Positions 17,703-23,368 of a stretch of 35,103 bases of DNA are shown one piece after another; the first letter of the stretch is position 1; the number at the start of each line of letters is the position of its first letter. The DNA comes from a virus. The stretch spans positions 1-35,103 of IMG/VR virus record IMGVR_UViG_3300027833_000125. One strand, 5' to 3'. Under the pieces are notes generated by a model. The model worked only from the letters and a program-made list of their open reading frames with translations. It was not told the DNA's origin and searched no databases. The translations under genes were made by a program, and so were the position numbers.

Positions 17703-17729
17703 GGGGACTCTTCGGAGTCCCTTTTTTTT
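17703..17729 (+). terminator. Rho-independent terminator after gp32
   Basis: A 7-bp GC-rich stem GGGACTC/GAGTCCC closed by a stable TTCG tetraloop is followed by eight T residues. It terminates the + strand gp32 transcript. On the - strand no T-run follows the hairpin. The stop codon of the converging tape measure gene (17728-17730) lies in the end of the T-run. Confidence 0.95.
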
Positions 17730-19587
17730 ATCTACTGGCTAATGCTTCTCTACTTCTATTAGGTTTCTGTGGTACTATATTATATGTATCCCCACCCCTA
17801 GTACTAGAGTTATCTGATGATACAGCATTTACTGTTGAACCACCAGATTGATTTGCTGCACTTCTGAGCTCTACATTCTGTGCTGATACCGTCATTAACT
17901 CAACACCTACAGATTGTTTATCCGCAGCTACATCATTACCTCCAGCACTCATATTTAAAGAACCTTGTAGTTTAGTAATACTAGCAACGGCCGCATCTAT
18001 ATCGGATTCCATGTTCTTTAGGCCGACGTATTCTATCTTGGATCCAAATATTCCATTATCATCTGTTCCACCAACTATAGCATATTCCATTGCTTTTGTT
18101 GCCATAGTTAATTCTTCAGCAAACTTTTGAGCATTGAAATCTACAGATCCTATACTACCGAATCTTTCTAGTACATCGGCAAATCTTCCAAATGCTTCAG
18201 TACCTTTATCAATATCAGCAGATCTTTCTCCTACCTTTAGTGCTGCCTCTATAGGTGAATCATCGCCGCTAAAGAACCCTACAATAGCAGATGCTCCTGC
18301 ACCTAAAGCTCCTATGAATTGGCCAGCACCAAATGCCGCCAGGCCAGCACCAAGACTTGCCAGTGTAGCTACTGTTGCATCCATTTGATCTAGGTTACCC
18401 AAACCACCAATGTCTAGTAGAGAGGCGACTTCATTTTTAACGGATTCACCTGACATTACTGCATCACCAGTACCGGCAAAGAATGAACCTATACCAAATG
18501 CACCAAGGCCGGCGCCAAGAGCTGCAAGAGTACCTACTGCGGTCTTAACACCATCACCAGTAGCATTTGGATCTTCTGCTATAGAAAGTAAATGTCCTAC
18601 GGTGTCTAGTATTGCTTCACCCTGTCCTTCATGTGAACCTTTAGCAAAGAAAGAACCAACACCAAATGCACCAAGACCTAAACCTAAATCAACTAAATCA
18701 TCCTTAACTGCTTTACCCGAACCTATGTTTGGATCTTGGCCGATAGATAGTAGAGTTGACACCGAAGCCTTAACACTAGCAGCATTCTCGGCCGAAGAAG
18801 CCTTAGAGAAGAACTCACCAACACCAAATGCAAGAAGTCCAGCACCTAAAACACCTAGTGTTCCTCCAACCCTAAGCGCATCACCCTCTTCGCCTGGTAT
18901 TTGAGCTATACTTAGATATGTAGCTACTGCAGCTTTAACTTCTTTAGCAGTATCATCAGACGCGGCCTTGGCAAAGAATGCCCCGACTCCGAATGCCCCA
19001 AGGCCGATACCTATAGCAGTTAATGTACCAAACACTTGTGCTGCCGCAAATTCATCTGCTTCTAAATCTGCAATTCCTAATAGGTCTTCAACATTCTGGA
19101 CTATTTTCTTACCGTCCATATTCTCTATGGTCTTAATTAAGAATGCACTAGACGCAAATACAGCAGCGACACCTACAGCTGCAGCACCTACACCTAATCC
19201 AGCACCACCTAGCATTTTACCTATGCCGCCCATGGTTCCACCCGCAGATGAACCACTACTACTACCACTTGAATTTGGGATACCAGATGAACGCATTTCT
19301 TTTAATTCATCTCGGATTTCTTCAAAGATACTCGATCTTTCTTTTGATTCCTCTTGGTCACCTAGTTTATTGGCGTTCATTACTTCAAAGAAATTTTCAA
19401 AACCGGTATTAACACTATCACTCATATCCAAAGAAGCTTGTTGGATCTTTTTCATCTCCAATAAGTGTCTTCTAGTATTTCTACCATCACGTTCAATCTC
19501 TGCGGTAGAGGCGTTATTGGCCGTCATCAGTTCAACTAGTTGTTCTAAACTGGCGCCTTTCTCTGGTGGTGTAGGGTTATCTTTCAT
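17728..19587 (-). CDS. Tail tape measure protein with hydrophobic glycine repeats (gp29-like)
   Basis: This 619-residue protein is near the length of T4 gp29 (590). The N-terminal 100 residues are coiled-coil-like (HLLEMKKIQQ, EEIRDELKEM), followed by a Ser/Gly linker and a hydrophobic region. Five repeats of about 55 residues then carry LGAFGVGAFF-type motifs (196-205, 251-260, 304-313, 361-370, about 415-424), each followed by a hydrophilic helix and TYLSIAQ- or TLLSIGQ-like segments. Such repeated hydrophobic segments are typical of tape measure proteins that fill the tail tube and set its length. The position just downstream of gp26/gp51 and the EF-hand protein supports this. The C-terminal 150 residues are Ser/Asn-rich. 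Homology to gp29 itself is not visible by eye. Confidence 0.7.
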   Translation of the reverse strand: MKDNPTPPEKGASLEQLVELMTANNASTAEIERDGRNTRRHLLEMKKIQQASLDMSDSVNTGFENFFEVMNANKLGDQEESKERSSIFEEIRDELKEMRSSGIPNSSGSSSGSSAGGTMGGIGKMLGGAGLGVGAAAVGVAAVFASSAFLIKTIENMDGKKIVQNVEDLLGIADLEADEFAAAQVFGTLTAIGIGLGAFGVGAFFAKAASDDTAKEVKAAVATYLSIAQIPGEEGDALRVGGTLGVLGAGLLAFGVGEFFSKASSAENAASVKASVSTLLSIGQDPNIGSGKAVKDDLVDLGLGLGAFGVGSFFAKGSHEGQGEAILDTVGHLLSIAEDPNATGDGVKTAVGTLAALGAGLGAFGIGSFFAGTGDAVMSGESVKNEVASLLDIGGLGNLDQMDATVATLASLGAGLAAFGAGQFIGALGAGASAIVGFFSGDDSPIEAALKVGERSADIDKGTEAFGRFADVLERFGSIGSVDFNAQKFAEELTMATKAMEYAIVGGTDDNGIFGSKIEYVGLKNMESDIDAAVASITKLQGSLNMSAGGNDVAADKQSVGVELMTVSAQNVELRSAANQSGGSTVNAVSSDNSSTRGGDTYNIVPQKPNRSREALASR

Positions 19588-19596
19588 CGGTCATTC

Positions 19597-19911
19597 CTAT
19601 TTTTTAGTAAAGGCCTGTGCACCAAAGAAGGCTGCTACAATACCTGCTACGGCTACAAAGTATGTTGGTGCCATAGAACCCAGAGTTGACTGAGCTTCAT
19701 TCAATCCAGCAAATGATGCAAGAACGACTGCAAAGGGATATAACAATAGACCCCATAGGGCGAACCAAGTCATGTTCCTCTGCGCATCTCGCATAGCATC
19801 TTGGTCATCAAGTTCTTTACGCTTGAATTCCAAGTACATATCATGCTCTTCTTTAGATACTTTACCATCGCCATTAGTGTCTGCTGGATGAGTTTTATTT
19901 TCTTCTGTCAT
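19597..19911 (-). CDS. EF-hand membrane protein
   Basis: This 104-residue protein has a perfect EF-hand calcium loop at residues 11-22 (DTNGDGKVSKEE: D, N, D, K backbone position, S and E ligands in place), a charged helix (25-47) and two hydrophobic helices (about 48-68 and 82-101). A similar EF-hand plus two-helix gene is found near tail genes in cyanomyophages, as far as I recall. It could be a virion-associated calcium sensor or a tail-tip membrane component used at entry; both are conjecture. It sits between gp51 and the tape measure, nine bases before the latter. Confidence 0.8.
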   Translation of the reverse strand: MTEENKTHPADTNGDGKVSKEEHDMYLEFKRKELDDQDAMRDAQRNMTWFALWGLLLYPFAVVLASFAGLNEAQSTLGSMAPTYFVAVAGIVAAFFGAQAFTKK

Positions 19912-19929
19912 TACGTTCCTCTGTATCCA

Positions 19930-20061
19930 CTAAAGTTTGGATTTCTGTTTTTGTTTTAAATTTTCGTCTTCTATATACTGCTTCAATAGAGCAACATATA
20001 TCTGCCTCTCCCATGGTATCATATCTTCCAGTTCAGTTAAACTATAATGATGATGTTGCAT
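19930..20061 (-). CDS. 51: gp51-like baseplate hub assembly protein, probably expressed as a gp26-gp51 fusion
   Basis: This frame has no start until ATG at 20061-20059, giving 43 residues, MQHHHYSLTELEDMIPWERQ then IYVALLKQYIEDENL. But the frame is open back to 20124, adding HESLENFYQTNFAL, which looks like part of the same protein. The MQHH-x-YSLTELE-x-M-x-PWER-x-IYV pattern is characteristic of marine T4-like gp51. The extended frame begins at a run of eight U residues at the end of gp26, so a -1 frameshift product (about 299 residues) is more likely than independent initiation. The frame follows gp26 and precedes the EF-hand gene, as tail assembly chaperones precede tape measures. Confidence 0.7.
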   Translation of the reverse strand: MQHHHYSLTELEDMIPWERQIYVALLKQYIEDENLKQKQKSKL

Positions 20062-20082
20062 TAAAGCAAAGTTGGTTTGATA

Positions 20083-20099
20083 AAAGTTTTCTAAACTTT
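20083..20099 (-). other. Small AU-rich hairpin downstream of the slippery site
   Basis: On the - strand, AAAGTTT and AAACTTT form a perfect 7-bp stem with a three-base loop (AGA). It begins 18 bases after the U-run. It is weak thermodynamically and farther than the usual spacing for a frameshift stimulator, so its role is uncertain. Confidence 0.3.
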
Positions 20100-20111
20100 C
20101 ATGTGAGAGGC

Positions 20112-20828
20112 CTATGAAAAAAAACTATTAAGTCCTTTTAATTCAACCTCATTATCCAACTTACATTTCATACATACAAAATTAGTAGTATATGATACAC
20201 TCGGAGTGTCCTGGAAAAATGCTTGAACCAGTTTAAACTGTTCCGAGTTTAAACCTTCAATGAACTCTACCAAGTCTACTCTTTTCTCTGTCTTCGCACT
20301 ATACACATTATCGTTATCAAATATACTTTCTATACAATCAACTACGAGATCCATAATACCTTCAACTGAATTAAAGTGTTCTGGATTAATTTTAGCTATA
20401 ACATCAACAGATGGATAGCGCATCTTAACTCCAACACCATTCTCGTCACCGAATAGAATAACTCCATCTGAATCCGTTGGTTTAGTAACCTTAATATCAT
20501 CTATATTAATAGATAAAGGATTCATTGTAGTACACTCATCGCCTTTACATTTAATTTGTATTTTCATCTCTTCGCCGACAGATTTTGCTCTGAGCTGTAA
20601 GAATAAAAATTCAATATCAAATATAGTTAATTCATCAAGTGATTCAAGTTCATAGCAAGACCGTATAATACTTCTTACTGCTTCAGTGATTTGCTCTGGG
20701 TCATTCGACTCCAATGCTATCATTAAAACTTTTTCTTCTTTGACCAAATAAGGTCTCATGTTTAGCCTTTCTCCACTACTCGGTAATTCAACCGTATATC
20801 GTGGAACGCTCATCTTTGGTAATGCCAT
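20112..20828 (-). CDS. 26: gp26-like baseplate hub assembly protein / tail assembly chaperone
   Basis: This 238-residue protein is close to T4 gp26 (208). It begins MALPKMSVPRYTVELPSSG and RPYLVKEEKVLMIALES, and has SLDELTIFDIEFLFLQLRAKSVGE (residues 63-86, given in part), a block diagnostic of this family. The second half has two Cys pairs (CKGDEC and CMKCK) that might bind zinc. In T4, gp26 and gp51 act in baseplate hub assembly. The gene lies just before gp51, the EF-hand gene and the tape measure, and its end carries a slippery U-run. It starts 14 bases after the tail-tube-fold gene, with a GGAG site. Confidence 0.85.
   Translation of the reverse strand: MALPKMSVPRYTVELPSSGERLNMRPYLVKEEKVLMIALESNDPEQITEAVRSIIRSCYELESLDELTIFDIEFLFLQLRAKSVGEEMKIQIKCKGDECTTMNPLSINIDDIKVTKPTDSDGVILFGDENGVGVKMRYPSVDVIAKINPEHFNSVEGIMDLVVDCIESIFDNDNVYSAKTEKRVDLVEFIEGLNSEQFKLVQAFFQDTPSVSYTTNFVCMKCKLDNEVELKGLNSFFS
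20118..20124 (-). other. Candidate -1 ribosomal frameshift heptamer (U UUU UUU) in gp26
   Basis: In the gp26 frame the end reads AGU UUU UUU UCA UAG. The heptamer U UUU UUU has X-XXY-YYZ geometry and permits a -1 slip into the gp51 frame, which is open exactly from here because its preceding codon is UAG. The normal stop lies two codons later, typical of G/GT-type chaperone frameshifts. Confidence 0.65.
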
Positions 20829-20842
20829 TATAATCTCCTAAA

Positions 20843-21472
20843 TTATATAAGTCCGGAAGGTATCGCACTCCTGAATGCAGACATTGTCGAGGACAGCGGC
20901 CCTTCTGGTACATAGTTATCGTAACTAAATGTTACATTAATTTTCTGGACAGCACTCTCACTATTATTGTCCAGAGTAATTCCGGTAACTGTGGTGGGAA
21001 AGGCATTTTCTAACCTAATACCATATACTGGAATATTTTTTTCATTCAACTGCTGTATAACAACATCCGAAGTAAAATCTTTTTTGAATTTTGCACGATA
21101 TGATTCAGAATCAAATACTTGTTCTAACCATCCATCAAACATGGTTTTCATATAGTAATCATTGGTGAGTAAAAAGGAACACGTAACATCTTCATTTATA
21201 AAACCATATGGTATCTTTACTGATTGTTTATCTGCTATATAATCTAGTGTTGTTATCTGTCGGCCGGGAATAGTCACATTCTCACATAAGAGAGAAATAT
21301 CCCTAGGGTCATTAATCATAGATTTAAGACCACCTCCAGATGTGAGTGCTCCTAGGAGCCCTTTGGCACTTAATAGAGAACCTTGGGGTGGTGTAAAAAA
21401 AACTTGGAATCTATTTGTCTTTGCAAGTCCACCTCGTTTACCGATTGTGCTCTTTAAATTATCAATGGACAT
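20843..21472 (-). CDS. Tail-tube-fold baseplate protein (gp54/gp19 family)
   Basis: This 209-residue protein has TNRFQVFFTPP (19-29), LLCENVTIPGRQITTLDY (61-78), KIPYGFINEDVTCSFLLTND (85-104), YYMKTMFDGWLEQVF and NAFPTTVTGITLDN, ending in FSYDNYV. These blocks belong to the T4 tail-tube-like fold (gp19, gp54, gp48 share it) and resemble the short tube-initiator-like proteins of marine T4-like phages. It probably sits at the baseplate-tube junction, rather than being the major tube protein, since the main tail genes are not here. The 209-residue length is much shorter than T4 gp54 (320), so the exact homologue is uncertain. Its start overlaps the stop of the next upstream gene by one base. Confidence 0.75.
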   Translation of the reverse strand: MSIDNLKSTIGKRGGLAKTNRFQVFFTPPQGSLLSAKGLLGALTSGGGLKSMINDPRDISLLCENVTIPGRQITTLDYIADKQSVKIPYGFINEDVTCSFLLTNDYYMKTMFDGWLEQVFDSESYRAKFKKDFTSDVVIQQLNEKNIPVYGIRLENAFPTTVTGITLDNNSESAVQKINVTFSYDNYVPEGPLSSTMSAFRSAIPSGLI

Positions 21473-22570: not shown

Positions 22571-23368
22571 ATGGCTGAAGATAAAGAAAACAGTGATGGC
22601 GATAAAGACGCAGAAGTTCCATTAGTATTTCCAGCATCTCTTAGAGCACAAGCAGACAAGGGCACTTCTCATGTTAGATTTAAAGTTCTTGGACCAGATG
22701 ATACTGGTGGTTCTTGTCATCTATTTATCCCTCAAGGGTTCTCTGTACCGGACTCTGCTTCATATACTAGCATTGAGTTAGGTATGGTAGGTGGTGCCGA
22801 AAGTGCTATGAAAGGTGAGGGTGTTGGGGCAATTACAATGGCCGACGTAACGGCCGCCGCAGCAAATGCAGGGGCTATTGTGGGTCAGCAACTGGGTTCT
22901 GCTGGCATCGGTGGTTCTCTAGGTAGTATATCTAACCTAAGAAAGGGACTTGCTTCAAACCCATACACCGAGACACAATATACTGGAAGTGGTATCAGGT
23001 CTTTCGGTTTTACATTTAAACTTGTAGCTGAGAGTAGTTCAGAGGCTGATACTGCATTAGCTATTGAAGAATTCTTTAGAGATAATATGTACCCAGAAGA
23101 ACAAGGAGCATTTACTTTAAAATATCCAAATAGATTTAAGATTGAATTTTATAACGGTGCCGATAAAAATAAATACATGCCTCTAATAAAAGAGTGTTAT
23201 CTATTAACCTTGCAAACAACATATAACTCTACTACTAATGCCTTTCATGATAAAGGACAACCAGTAGAGATTGATATAGCACTTACCTTCCAAGAAGTTA
23301 AAGCGTTGACACGTAATGACTTGCACGAAGAAGAAGAAATTTCGGAAGAAAAGGGAGCTGATGAATAA
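22571..23368 (+). CDS. Baseplate tail-tube junction protein (gp48-like)
   Basis: This 265-residue protein starts with an acidic tail (EDKENSDGDKDAEVP), then the predicted tube-like domain: VPLVFPASLRAQADKGTSH, a Gly/Ala-rich insert (75-125), GSGIRSFGFTFKLVAESS (136-153), AIEEFFRDNMYPEEQ and LKYPNRFKIEFY, and a final FQEVKALTRNDL. The F-x-FK-[LM]-VAES ... FR-x-x-MYPE ... YP-x-x-F-x-I-x-F arrangement is typical of the marine T4-like gp48-type tube cap. T4 gp48 is longer (364), so the exact homology is inferred. It is the first gene of the + strand baseplate operon and ends on the gp53 ATG (TAATG). Confidence 0.75.
   Translation: MAEDKENSDGDKDAEVPLVFPASLRAQADKGTSHVRFKVLGPDDTGGSCHLFIPQGFSVPDSASYTSIELGMVGGAESAMKGEGVGAITMADVTAAAANAGAIVGQQLGSAGIGGSLGSISNLRKGLASNPYTETQYTGSGIRSFGFTFKLVAESSSEADTALAIEEFFRDNMYPEEQGAFTLKYPNRFKIEFYNGADKNKYMPLIKECYLLTLQTTYNSTTNAFHDKGQPVEIDIALTFQEVKALTRNDLHEEEEISEEKGADE

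Follow-up and report, generated by a model that had tools for sequence, protein, structure and literature searches.

How is the C-terminal domain of gp51 produced from a reading frame that has no start codon ahead of it? The window analysed here, an IMG/VR virus record consisting of one 35,103-base fragment of a marine phage, carries such a frame in the −1 register at the end of a gp26-like gene. PMC3004832 lists the corresponding T4 proteins, gp26 and gp51, as hub assembly chaperones; gp51 is described there as required yet absent from the particle, and some work puts gp26 in the hub. PMC5009743 describes the G/GT frameshift as a conserved feature of long-tailed phages 'except T4'. The original prediction held that a G/GT-type frameshift joins gp26 and gp51 at this locus, and comparative tests of the heptamer and of the startless −1 frame support it. 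We put at about 0.88 the probability that a −1 frameshift makes a G/GT-like tail-chaperone pair and was replaced by gene duplication in the T4 lineage.

Junction of the gp26-like gene and the −1 frame

The gp26-like gene (20112..20828, minus strand) encodes a 238-residue protein, the 0-frame product and putative 'G'-like chaperone, which matches PF12322 (E 1.1e-59) and phrog_150 (E 6.5e-66). Its coding sequence ends ...GGA CTT AAT AGT TTT TTT TCA TAG, in which a run of eight T contains the heptamer T_TTT_TTT (20124..20118, minus strand). At the RNA level, the candidate slippery heptamer U_UUU_UUU is read in frame 0 as AGU UUU UUU and lies one codon 5' of the UAG, and it is conserved in relatives. 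The predicted gene end AGU UUU UUU UCA UAG, with a heptamer just before the stop, was thus confirmed on the minus strand.

The −1 frame (19930..20124, minus strand) is open from the first T of the heptamer at 20124 to 19930, spanning 64 codons from stop to stop, and its translation is FFFIGLSHESLENFYQTNFALMQHHHYSLTELEDMIPWERQIYVALLKQYIEDENLKQKQKSKL. By its phrog_634 match, pN/pS and a C-domain HMM, it is a probable gp51-type, 'T'-like C-domain without a usable start. It matches phrog_634, 'baseplate hub assembly catalyst' (gp51), with an E value of 2.9e-27, and in addition the C-terminal end of phrog_150, 'baseplate hub' (positions 231-278 of 282, E 4.4e-9). The first ATG of this frame in the window is the M of ...FALM, at codon index 19 after the heptamer, and no ATG, GTG or TTG lies upstream of it. 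A −1 slip on T_TTT_TTT would yield a predicted fusion of 299 residues, with LNSFFFIGLSHESLENFYQ as the predicted junction peptide in this phage. A gp51-like −1 frame, open from the U-run and startless ahead of its core, and a 299-residue fusion next to a 238-residue gp26 had all been predicted, and the present data agree on each point.

The chaperone pair adjoins a tail-tube-family gene directly upstream (20843..21472, minus strand; phrog_45, E 6.4e-33; HTVC008M 'tail tube protein', E 1e-27), whose PF06841 match is below the cut-off, and it precedes a large 619-residue ORF without a family match. This repetitive Gly/Ala-rich ORF (17728..19587, minus strand) is a candidate tape measure; the claim that the site lies upstream of the tape measure is therefore weaker than first stated, the ORF being so placed by position and composition only. 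No family in Pfam, PHROGs or NCBIfam matched it at E 0.01 or better, and BLASTP detected no similarity to the putative tape measure of HTVC008M (best E 0.20). The ORF contains several Gly-rich repeat copies of the LGAFGVGxFFAK type. Between it and the chaperone pair lies a gene for a 104-residue protein (19597..19911, minus strand) with a weak EF-hand match below the Pfam cut-off; an EF-hand-like motif, DTNGDGKVSKEE, and apparent hydrophobic segments are visible in this protein. For a 265-residue protein encoded elsewhere in the window (22571-23368, plus strand), the match to the tail tube cap profile phrog_230 is confined to profile positions 344-588 of 628; the protein may be a shortened cap.

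Conservation of the heptamer among relatives

Relatives were collected from a scan of viral contigs as the best 80 of 335 loci, 79 of which reach the gp26 stop. In the window and these 79 (80/80 loci), TTTTTTT occurs at the same place and leads into an open −1 frame that encodes the same C-domain. To this set were added 20 frameshift-type phage records and further contigs in groups of 2, 18, 80 and 11, the 80 being the best 80 of at least 598; a query with SRB7757 found no relative. The collection is a sample: 931 phage records with a gp26 match were counted, and 20 frameshift-type and five T4-type records were opened. It comprises 212 loci including the window, some of them the same phage twice. 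Two (L019 and L225), on contigs that end before the gp26 stop, were dropped, leaving 210, and another (L199) begins within gp26. The in-frame heptamer T_TTT_TTN is found in 189 of the 210 loci, 20 Ackermannviridae-type loci carry a weaker site, and one (L218) has a truncated gp26. In the last of these, an HTVC008M-like contig, gp26 ends early at 162 residues without a heptamer at the early stop, close relatives are intact, and an assembly error is probable; it is counted in the 210 and not among the representatives described below.

Removal of near-copies, down to gp26 DNA under 85% identical, from the 209 loci with a gp26 of more than 200 residues gave 108 representatives, 103 of them non-Ackermannviridae and five Ackermannviridae-type. 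An in-frame X_XXY_YYZ heptamer lies near the gp26 end in 103/103 of the former, including those with an ATG near the gp26 stop, and in 0/5 of the latter; this is the comparison of the junction across relatives for which the original prediction had called. The heptamer is TTTTTTC in 78, TTTTTTT in 24 and TTTTTTG in one, and its distance to the stop is 3 nt in 99, 0 nt in three and 6 nt in one. After thinning to under 60% nucleotide identity, all 17 remaining non-Ackermannviridae representatives retain T_TTT_TTN.

Codon choice at the junction is equally uniform. TTT encodes the first heptamer Phe in 103/103 representatives, versus a TTT:TTC ratio of 782:386 elsewhere in the 108, and the codon 5' of it always ends in T (AGT 53, TCT 33, GAT 12, AAT 3, GGT 2), with 56% of the Ser codons elsewhere in the gp26 genes ending in T. 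Furthermore, T_TTT_TTN occurs in none of the 92 other in-frame Phe-Phe pairs of gp26, as compared with 103/103 at the junction. Calculated from each gene's own codon usage, the log10 probability is −20.9 for all first codons being TTT and −26.9 for all preceding codons ending in T, values that overstate the case because the genes are related. On this comparison, the conservation of the heptamer is not codon bias.

Protein selection on the −1 frame and possible other routes to the C-domain

The −1 frame was analysed in 23 distinct sequences, including the window, that have no ATG, GTG or TTG in the first 17 −1 codons. Over −1 codons 3-16, beyond the gp26 stop, pN/pS is 0.425, as compared with 1.18 and 1.15 in the remaining frames, and by this measure the −1 frame is under protein selection ahead of any start in those 23 sequences. 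A separate gp51 made from an internal Met is disfavoured in those phages because −1 pN/pS is low before any start. By comparison, among the 103 representatives, 21 have no ATG, GTG or TTG at codon indices 0-8 after the heptamer and 82 have some start there, with an ATG at index 3 in 38, at index 2 in five and at index 6 in 20. As a start is absent from these positions in only 21 of 103, re-initiation could contribute free C-domain in the other phages. The predicted absence of a gp51 start thus holds for the window and the phages close to it, and for several distant ones, but not for the many relatives (82/103) with a possible start.

These starts raise the possibility that gp51 is produced separately, either by ribosomes that terminate and re-initiate or from a non-AUG start immediately 3' of the gp26 stop. 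Besides the ATGs counted above, an ATG overlaps the gp26 stop in VH1_2019, EniLVp02, AF3 and YX22, and annotators have used such starts in public records. However, ATG, GTG and TTG are all absent ahead of the conserved core in the window and its nearest relatives, the heptamer is retained with or without an ATG nearby, protein selection on the −1 frame precedes the first start, and T4 gp51 is a true fusion spanning the junction, all of which make separate production of gp51 highly improbable. A little less probable again is transcriptional slippage on the T-run, in which mRNAs that have gained or lost a base would give the fusion by normal decoding. Of 190 non-Ackermannviridae loci, 91 have runs of seven or eight T, with eight at the window site, but such slippage is disfavoured because 98 of the 190 have only six T, and six T is short for polymerase slippage; moreover, it is the X_XXY_YYZ phase that is conserved and not the run length. 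Finally, as the junction is a homopolymer and the window a single IMG/VR fragment, the frame break might stem from a sequencing or assembly error, the real gene being one in-frame ORF or two ordinary genes. This is excluded for practical purposes by the recurrence of the frame break in many independent isolate genomes and contigs, also with TTTTTTC, and the gp26 lengths reveal no in-frame fusion among 210 loci. A −1 ribosomal frameshift is our preferred reading of the junction.

Candidate stimulators near the heptamer

A purine-rich, Shine-Dalgarno-like AAAAGGA (20133..20139, minus strand) lies 8 nt 5' of the heptamer and is a possible, weak stimulator. GG is found at positions −11/−10 in 103/103 non-Ackermannviridae representatives, a conservation that is due to an invariant Gly. 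The Shine-Dalgarno-like purines were rejected as a specific signal, since similar purines occur in T4-type gp26 genes without the heptamer.

On the 3' side, a 5-bp hairpin with a tetraloop, separated from the heptamer by 10 nt, shows covariation among 63 cyanophage-clade representatives, with 33 double-change cells versus a shuffled mean of 11.8 and 0/500 shuffles as high, a count that is not a probability, the rows being related. RNAalifold predicted no pairs at this hairpin in the cyanophage set. Near the corresponding place, the window clade has a small hairpin site (20096..20109, minus strand), at which four of five pairs are possible, with one mismatch in the window. In 30 rows of this clade the hairpin pairs hardly vary, and RNAalifold yields a different, weak structure. 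The minimum-energy hairpin 3' of the stop in the window (20080..20102, minus strand; z −1.37, 15/200 shuffles as good) excludes the hairpin at 20096..20109. Across the 103 representatives, the 45 nt 3' of the heptamer fold modestly better than shuffles (mean z −1.4). A conserved downstream pseudoknot or stem was not adopted as a feature of the site, given that RNAalifold gave no support to the covarying hairpin and the window-clade pairs are nearly invariant. In Rfam, positions 19800-20400 gave only two chance-level matches, far below the gathering scores. A stimulator near the heptamer is possible.

Divergent junction in Ackermannviridae-type loci

The Ackermannviridae-type loci comprise EP75, YX22 and 18 others found with EP75 gp26 (L095, L098 and L102-L119). 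All 20 have the junction GA[A/G] ATT TTC AT[T/C] TAA, and their site, [A/G]_AUU_UUC, re-pairs poorly and is a poor tandem-slip site. The −1 C-domain is homologous in the loci tested with the C-domain HMM (L095, L098, L102, L112, L116 and L118), and 16 of the 20 have no ATG at the gp26 stop. These loci therefore fit the frameshift reading only partly.

Paralogy of gp26 and gp51 and a probable duplication in the T4 lineage

T4 gp51 (249 residues) matches PF12322 over residues 1-201 with an E value of 3.9e-52, and T4 gp26 matches it with 8.8e-64. Against the curated cut-off of 24.5 bits of this family (T4_baseplate), the scores are 202 for window gp26, 216 for T4 gp26 and 178 for T4 gp51. As both T4 proteins match PF12322, they are paralogues. 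In addition, T4 gp51 runs in frame from its gp26-like part into the C-domain and is colinear with the predicted window fusion, ...GLNSFFFIGLSHESLENFYQTNFALMQHHHYSLTELEDMIPWERQ. The T4 and window proteins thus belong to one family and T4 gp51 shares the C-domain, whereas T4 has two separate, divergent genes and T4-type gp26 lacks the heptamer. Among 14 T4-type gp26 genes, none has the heptamer, and the Phe pair is kept as TTC TTT in nine. The T4-type set consists of 15 loci, 14 of them with a complete gp26 end, and several of the 14 are near-copies of T4; L122, in which gp26 is cut off, was dropped, and the gp26 of L127 is absent from the tree. In L128 (IMGVR_UViG_2974754850, 2001-2746), the T4-type gp51 is split over frames, probably by a sequence error; it was left out of the alignments and kept in the ORF search with the C-domain HMM.

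The training set of this HMM was limited to 87 −1 ORFs from cyanophage-like and window-like loci, and the search covered 2,188 ORFs of 37 held-out loci. At E < 0.01, it recovered either the −1 ORF or the C-terminus of gp51 in 35 of the 37, with the best unrelated ORF at E 0.28; the two misses at that threshold were L096 (E 0.081) and L214 (no match). In a tree of 53 gp26 domains, which is unrooted and has long branches, including the T4-type gp26 of KP15 and 60AhydR15PP, 34 frameshift-type rows (three of them Ackermannviridae-type) are split from 19 T4-type rows with support of 99/95. Within the same tree, gp51 forms one group (100/100), and T4-type gp26 is weak as a group (60/15).

The frameshift type spans Kyanoviridae, Rhizobium/Sinorhizobium phages and Straboviridae (KVP40-like, Aeh1 and 65), with a divergent form in Ackermannviridae. 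According to the taxonomy lines, the frameshift-type Straboviridae outside the T4 branch include a KVP40-like phage, EniLVp02, Aeh1, 65, S13 and VmeM-32. Given that the frameshift type occurs in Straboviridae outside the T4 branch as well as in other families, the most economical history has one switch to duplication, which presumably ran from frameshift to duplication. We consider it probable that T4 is no exception to G/GT, with gp26 as G and gp51 as GT, the frameshift being ancestral in T4-superfamily myoviruses and one duplication having replaced it with loss of the heptamer. Such a duplication in the T4 lineage would explain the seeming exception of T4 among long-tailed phages. The original prediction had proposed a link between the T4 hub factors and the general chaperone scheme; the link found here goes further, with gp26 and gp51 as paralogues and gp51 as the in-frame equivalent of the fusion.

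Short or missing gp51 in earlier records

In the main text of Sullivan et al. 2010 (PMC3037559), cyanophage gp51 is given as about 20% of the usual length, with the first ~200 residues absent, and gp51 is reported as missing only in Aeh1; the word 'frameshift' does not occur in that main text (count 0). The 'short gp51' of cyanophages described there corresponds to the same C-domain as the window −1 ORF, and the ~200 residues that it lacks would be gp26, joined by the predicted frameshift. In Aeh1, the C-domain is encoded in the −1 frame that follows GAT TTT TTC. None of the annotated frameshift-type records opened joins the C-domain to gp26. In the records of P-HM2, HTVC008M and S-H25, the C-domain is annotated as a short ORF from an internal ATG, in those of Aeh1, S13 and AsFcp_2 it is unannotated, and in that of VmeM-32 it is likewise unannotated or a short ORF from an internal ATG.

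That gp51 belongs to the gp26 family is already implicit in Pfam and PHROGs. New here are the gp26-gp51 frameshift and its exchange for gene duplication: we found no earlier description of this frameshift or of gp26/gp51 paralogy in the literature searched, of which subscription journals formed a thin part.

Proposed mechanism and implications

We propose that the gp26 mRNA bears a programmed −1 ribosomal frameshift site. Most ribosomes would read AGU UUU UUU UCA UAG and stop, giving the 238-residue gp26 ('G'), whereas a minority would move back by one base on U_UUU_UUU, tRNA-Phe occupying the P as well as the A site, and read UUC AUA GGC..., giving the 299-residue gp26::gp51C fusion ('GT'). 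The two products would most likely act in a set ratio during tail assembly, in which the tape measure is brought together with the hub and the tube start, a role argued from lambda gpG/gpGT and from the T4 hub chaperones gp26 and gp51. T4-type Straboviridae would obtain this pair of products from two paralogues: gp26, which has neither the C-domain nor the heptamer, and gp51, in which a gp26-like domain continues in frame into the C-domain. A duplication would thus have replaced the frameshift.

The comparisons strongly support a conserved programmed −1 frameshift that joins the gp51 C-domain to gp26: the heptamer is conserved, selection acts on the −1 frame as protein ahead of any start, the C-domains are homologous, and gp26 and gp51 are paralogues in T4. 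That the slippage is ribosomal, its rate, the functions of the two products and the direction of the switch are inferred.

If correct, this reading would make gp51, the long unexplained 'hub assembly catalyst', a low-copy tail-assembly adaptor, and a single scheme would cover both T4 and the G/GT phages, with the role of gp51 testable as GT. It would also explain why gp51 looked oddly short, truncated or 'missing' in cyanophages and Aeromonas phages, and a joined gp26-gp51 CDS would be needed in the records of these genomes. Furthermore, the T4 lineage would offer a clear case in which gene duplication replaces programmed recoding with both products kept.

Comparison with known tail chaperones

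Sequence searches place window gp26 apart from the known tail assembly chaperone families. It had no Pfam match to TAC families up to E 1, where HK97 gp13 itself matches PF06222; hhalign against HK97 gp13 relatives (Phage_TAC_1) gave a probability of 0.2%, that is, no sequence link. A search of NCBIfam gave no family above its cut-off. In the PDB, sequence searches returned nothing for T4 gp51 and one chance-level match for gp26, and a profile search returned no chaperone.

An AlphaFold model of window gp26 (pLDDT 84) suggests a more distant likeness. Over its first ~90 residues, the best PDB matches are 3fgx_A (Z 7.6), 2ob9_A (Z 7.3) and 5ir0_B (Z 5.5), all below Z 8, the level that the tool calls safe, and the next row has Z 3.4; 2ob9_A, the HK97 tail chaperone, aligns over 82 residues with an rmsd of 3.6. 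Foldseek gave E 0.58 and a probability of 0.51 for the gp26 model, with no E under 0.001. A full-length gp51 model (L124) has a confident N-terminal part and a weaker C-domain, and no chaperone was among the matches listed for it. Among PF12322 phages, the Campylobacter CP220 and Bacillus SP-15 types came up as structural relatives. The likeness of the modelled gp26 fold to the HK97 tail chaperone is therefore only suggestive.

A frameshift at the end of a tail assembly chaperone gene is found not only in lambda and HK97 but also in P2, with E and E+E'. As in lambda gpG/gpGT and HK97 gp13/14, the predicted window site would direct a −1 frameshift from a slippery sequence at the 3' end of a small chaperone gene, and in lambda, HK97 and the window alike a tail-tube gene lies upstream of the chaperone gene. 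The HK97 annotation gives gp13-14 as a −1 frameshift that follows the major tail subunit and precedes the tape measure. By comparison, the tape measure gene is annotated for HK97 and a candidate only in the window, and the gp26 part is longer, at about 228-282 residues where complete, versus 128 for HK97 gp13. According to PMC5009743, the tape measure of lambda is bound by gpG as well as by gpGT, and the tail tube protein by GT; by analogy with this pair, it is well motivated that gp26 and its fusion to gp51C would work like G and GT.
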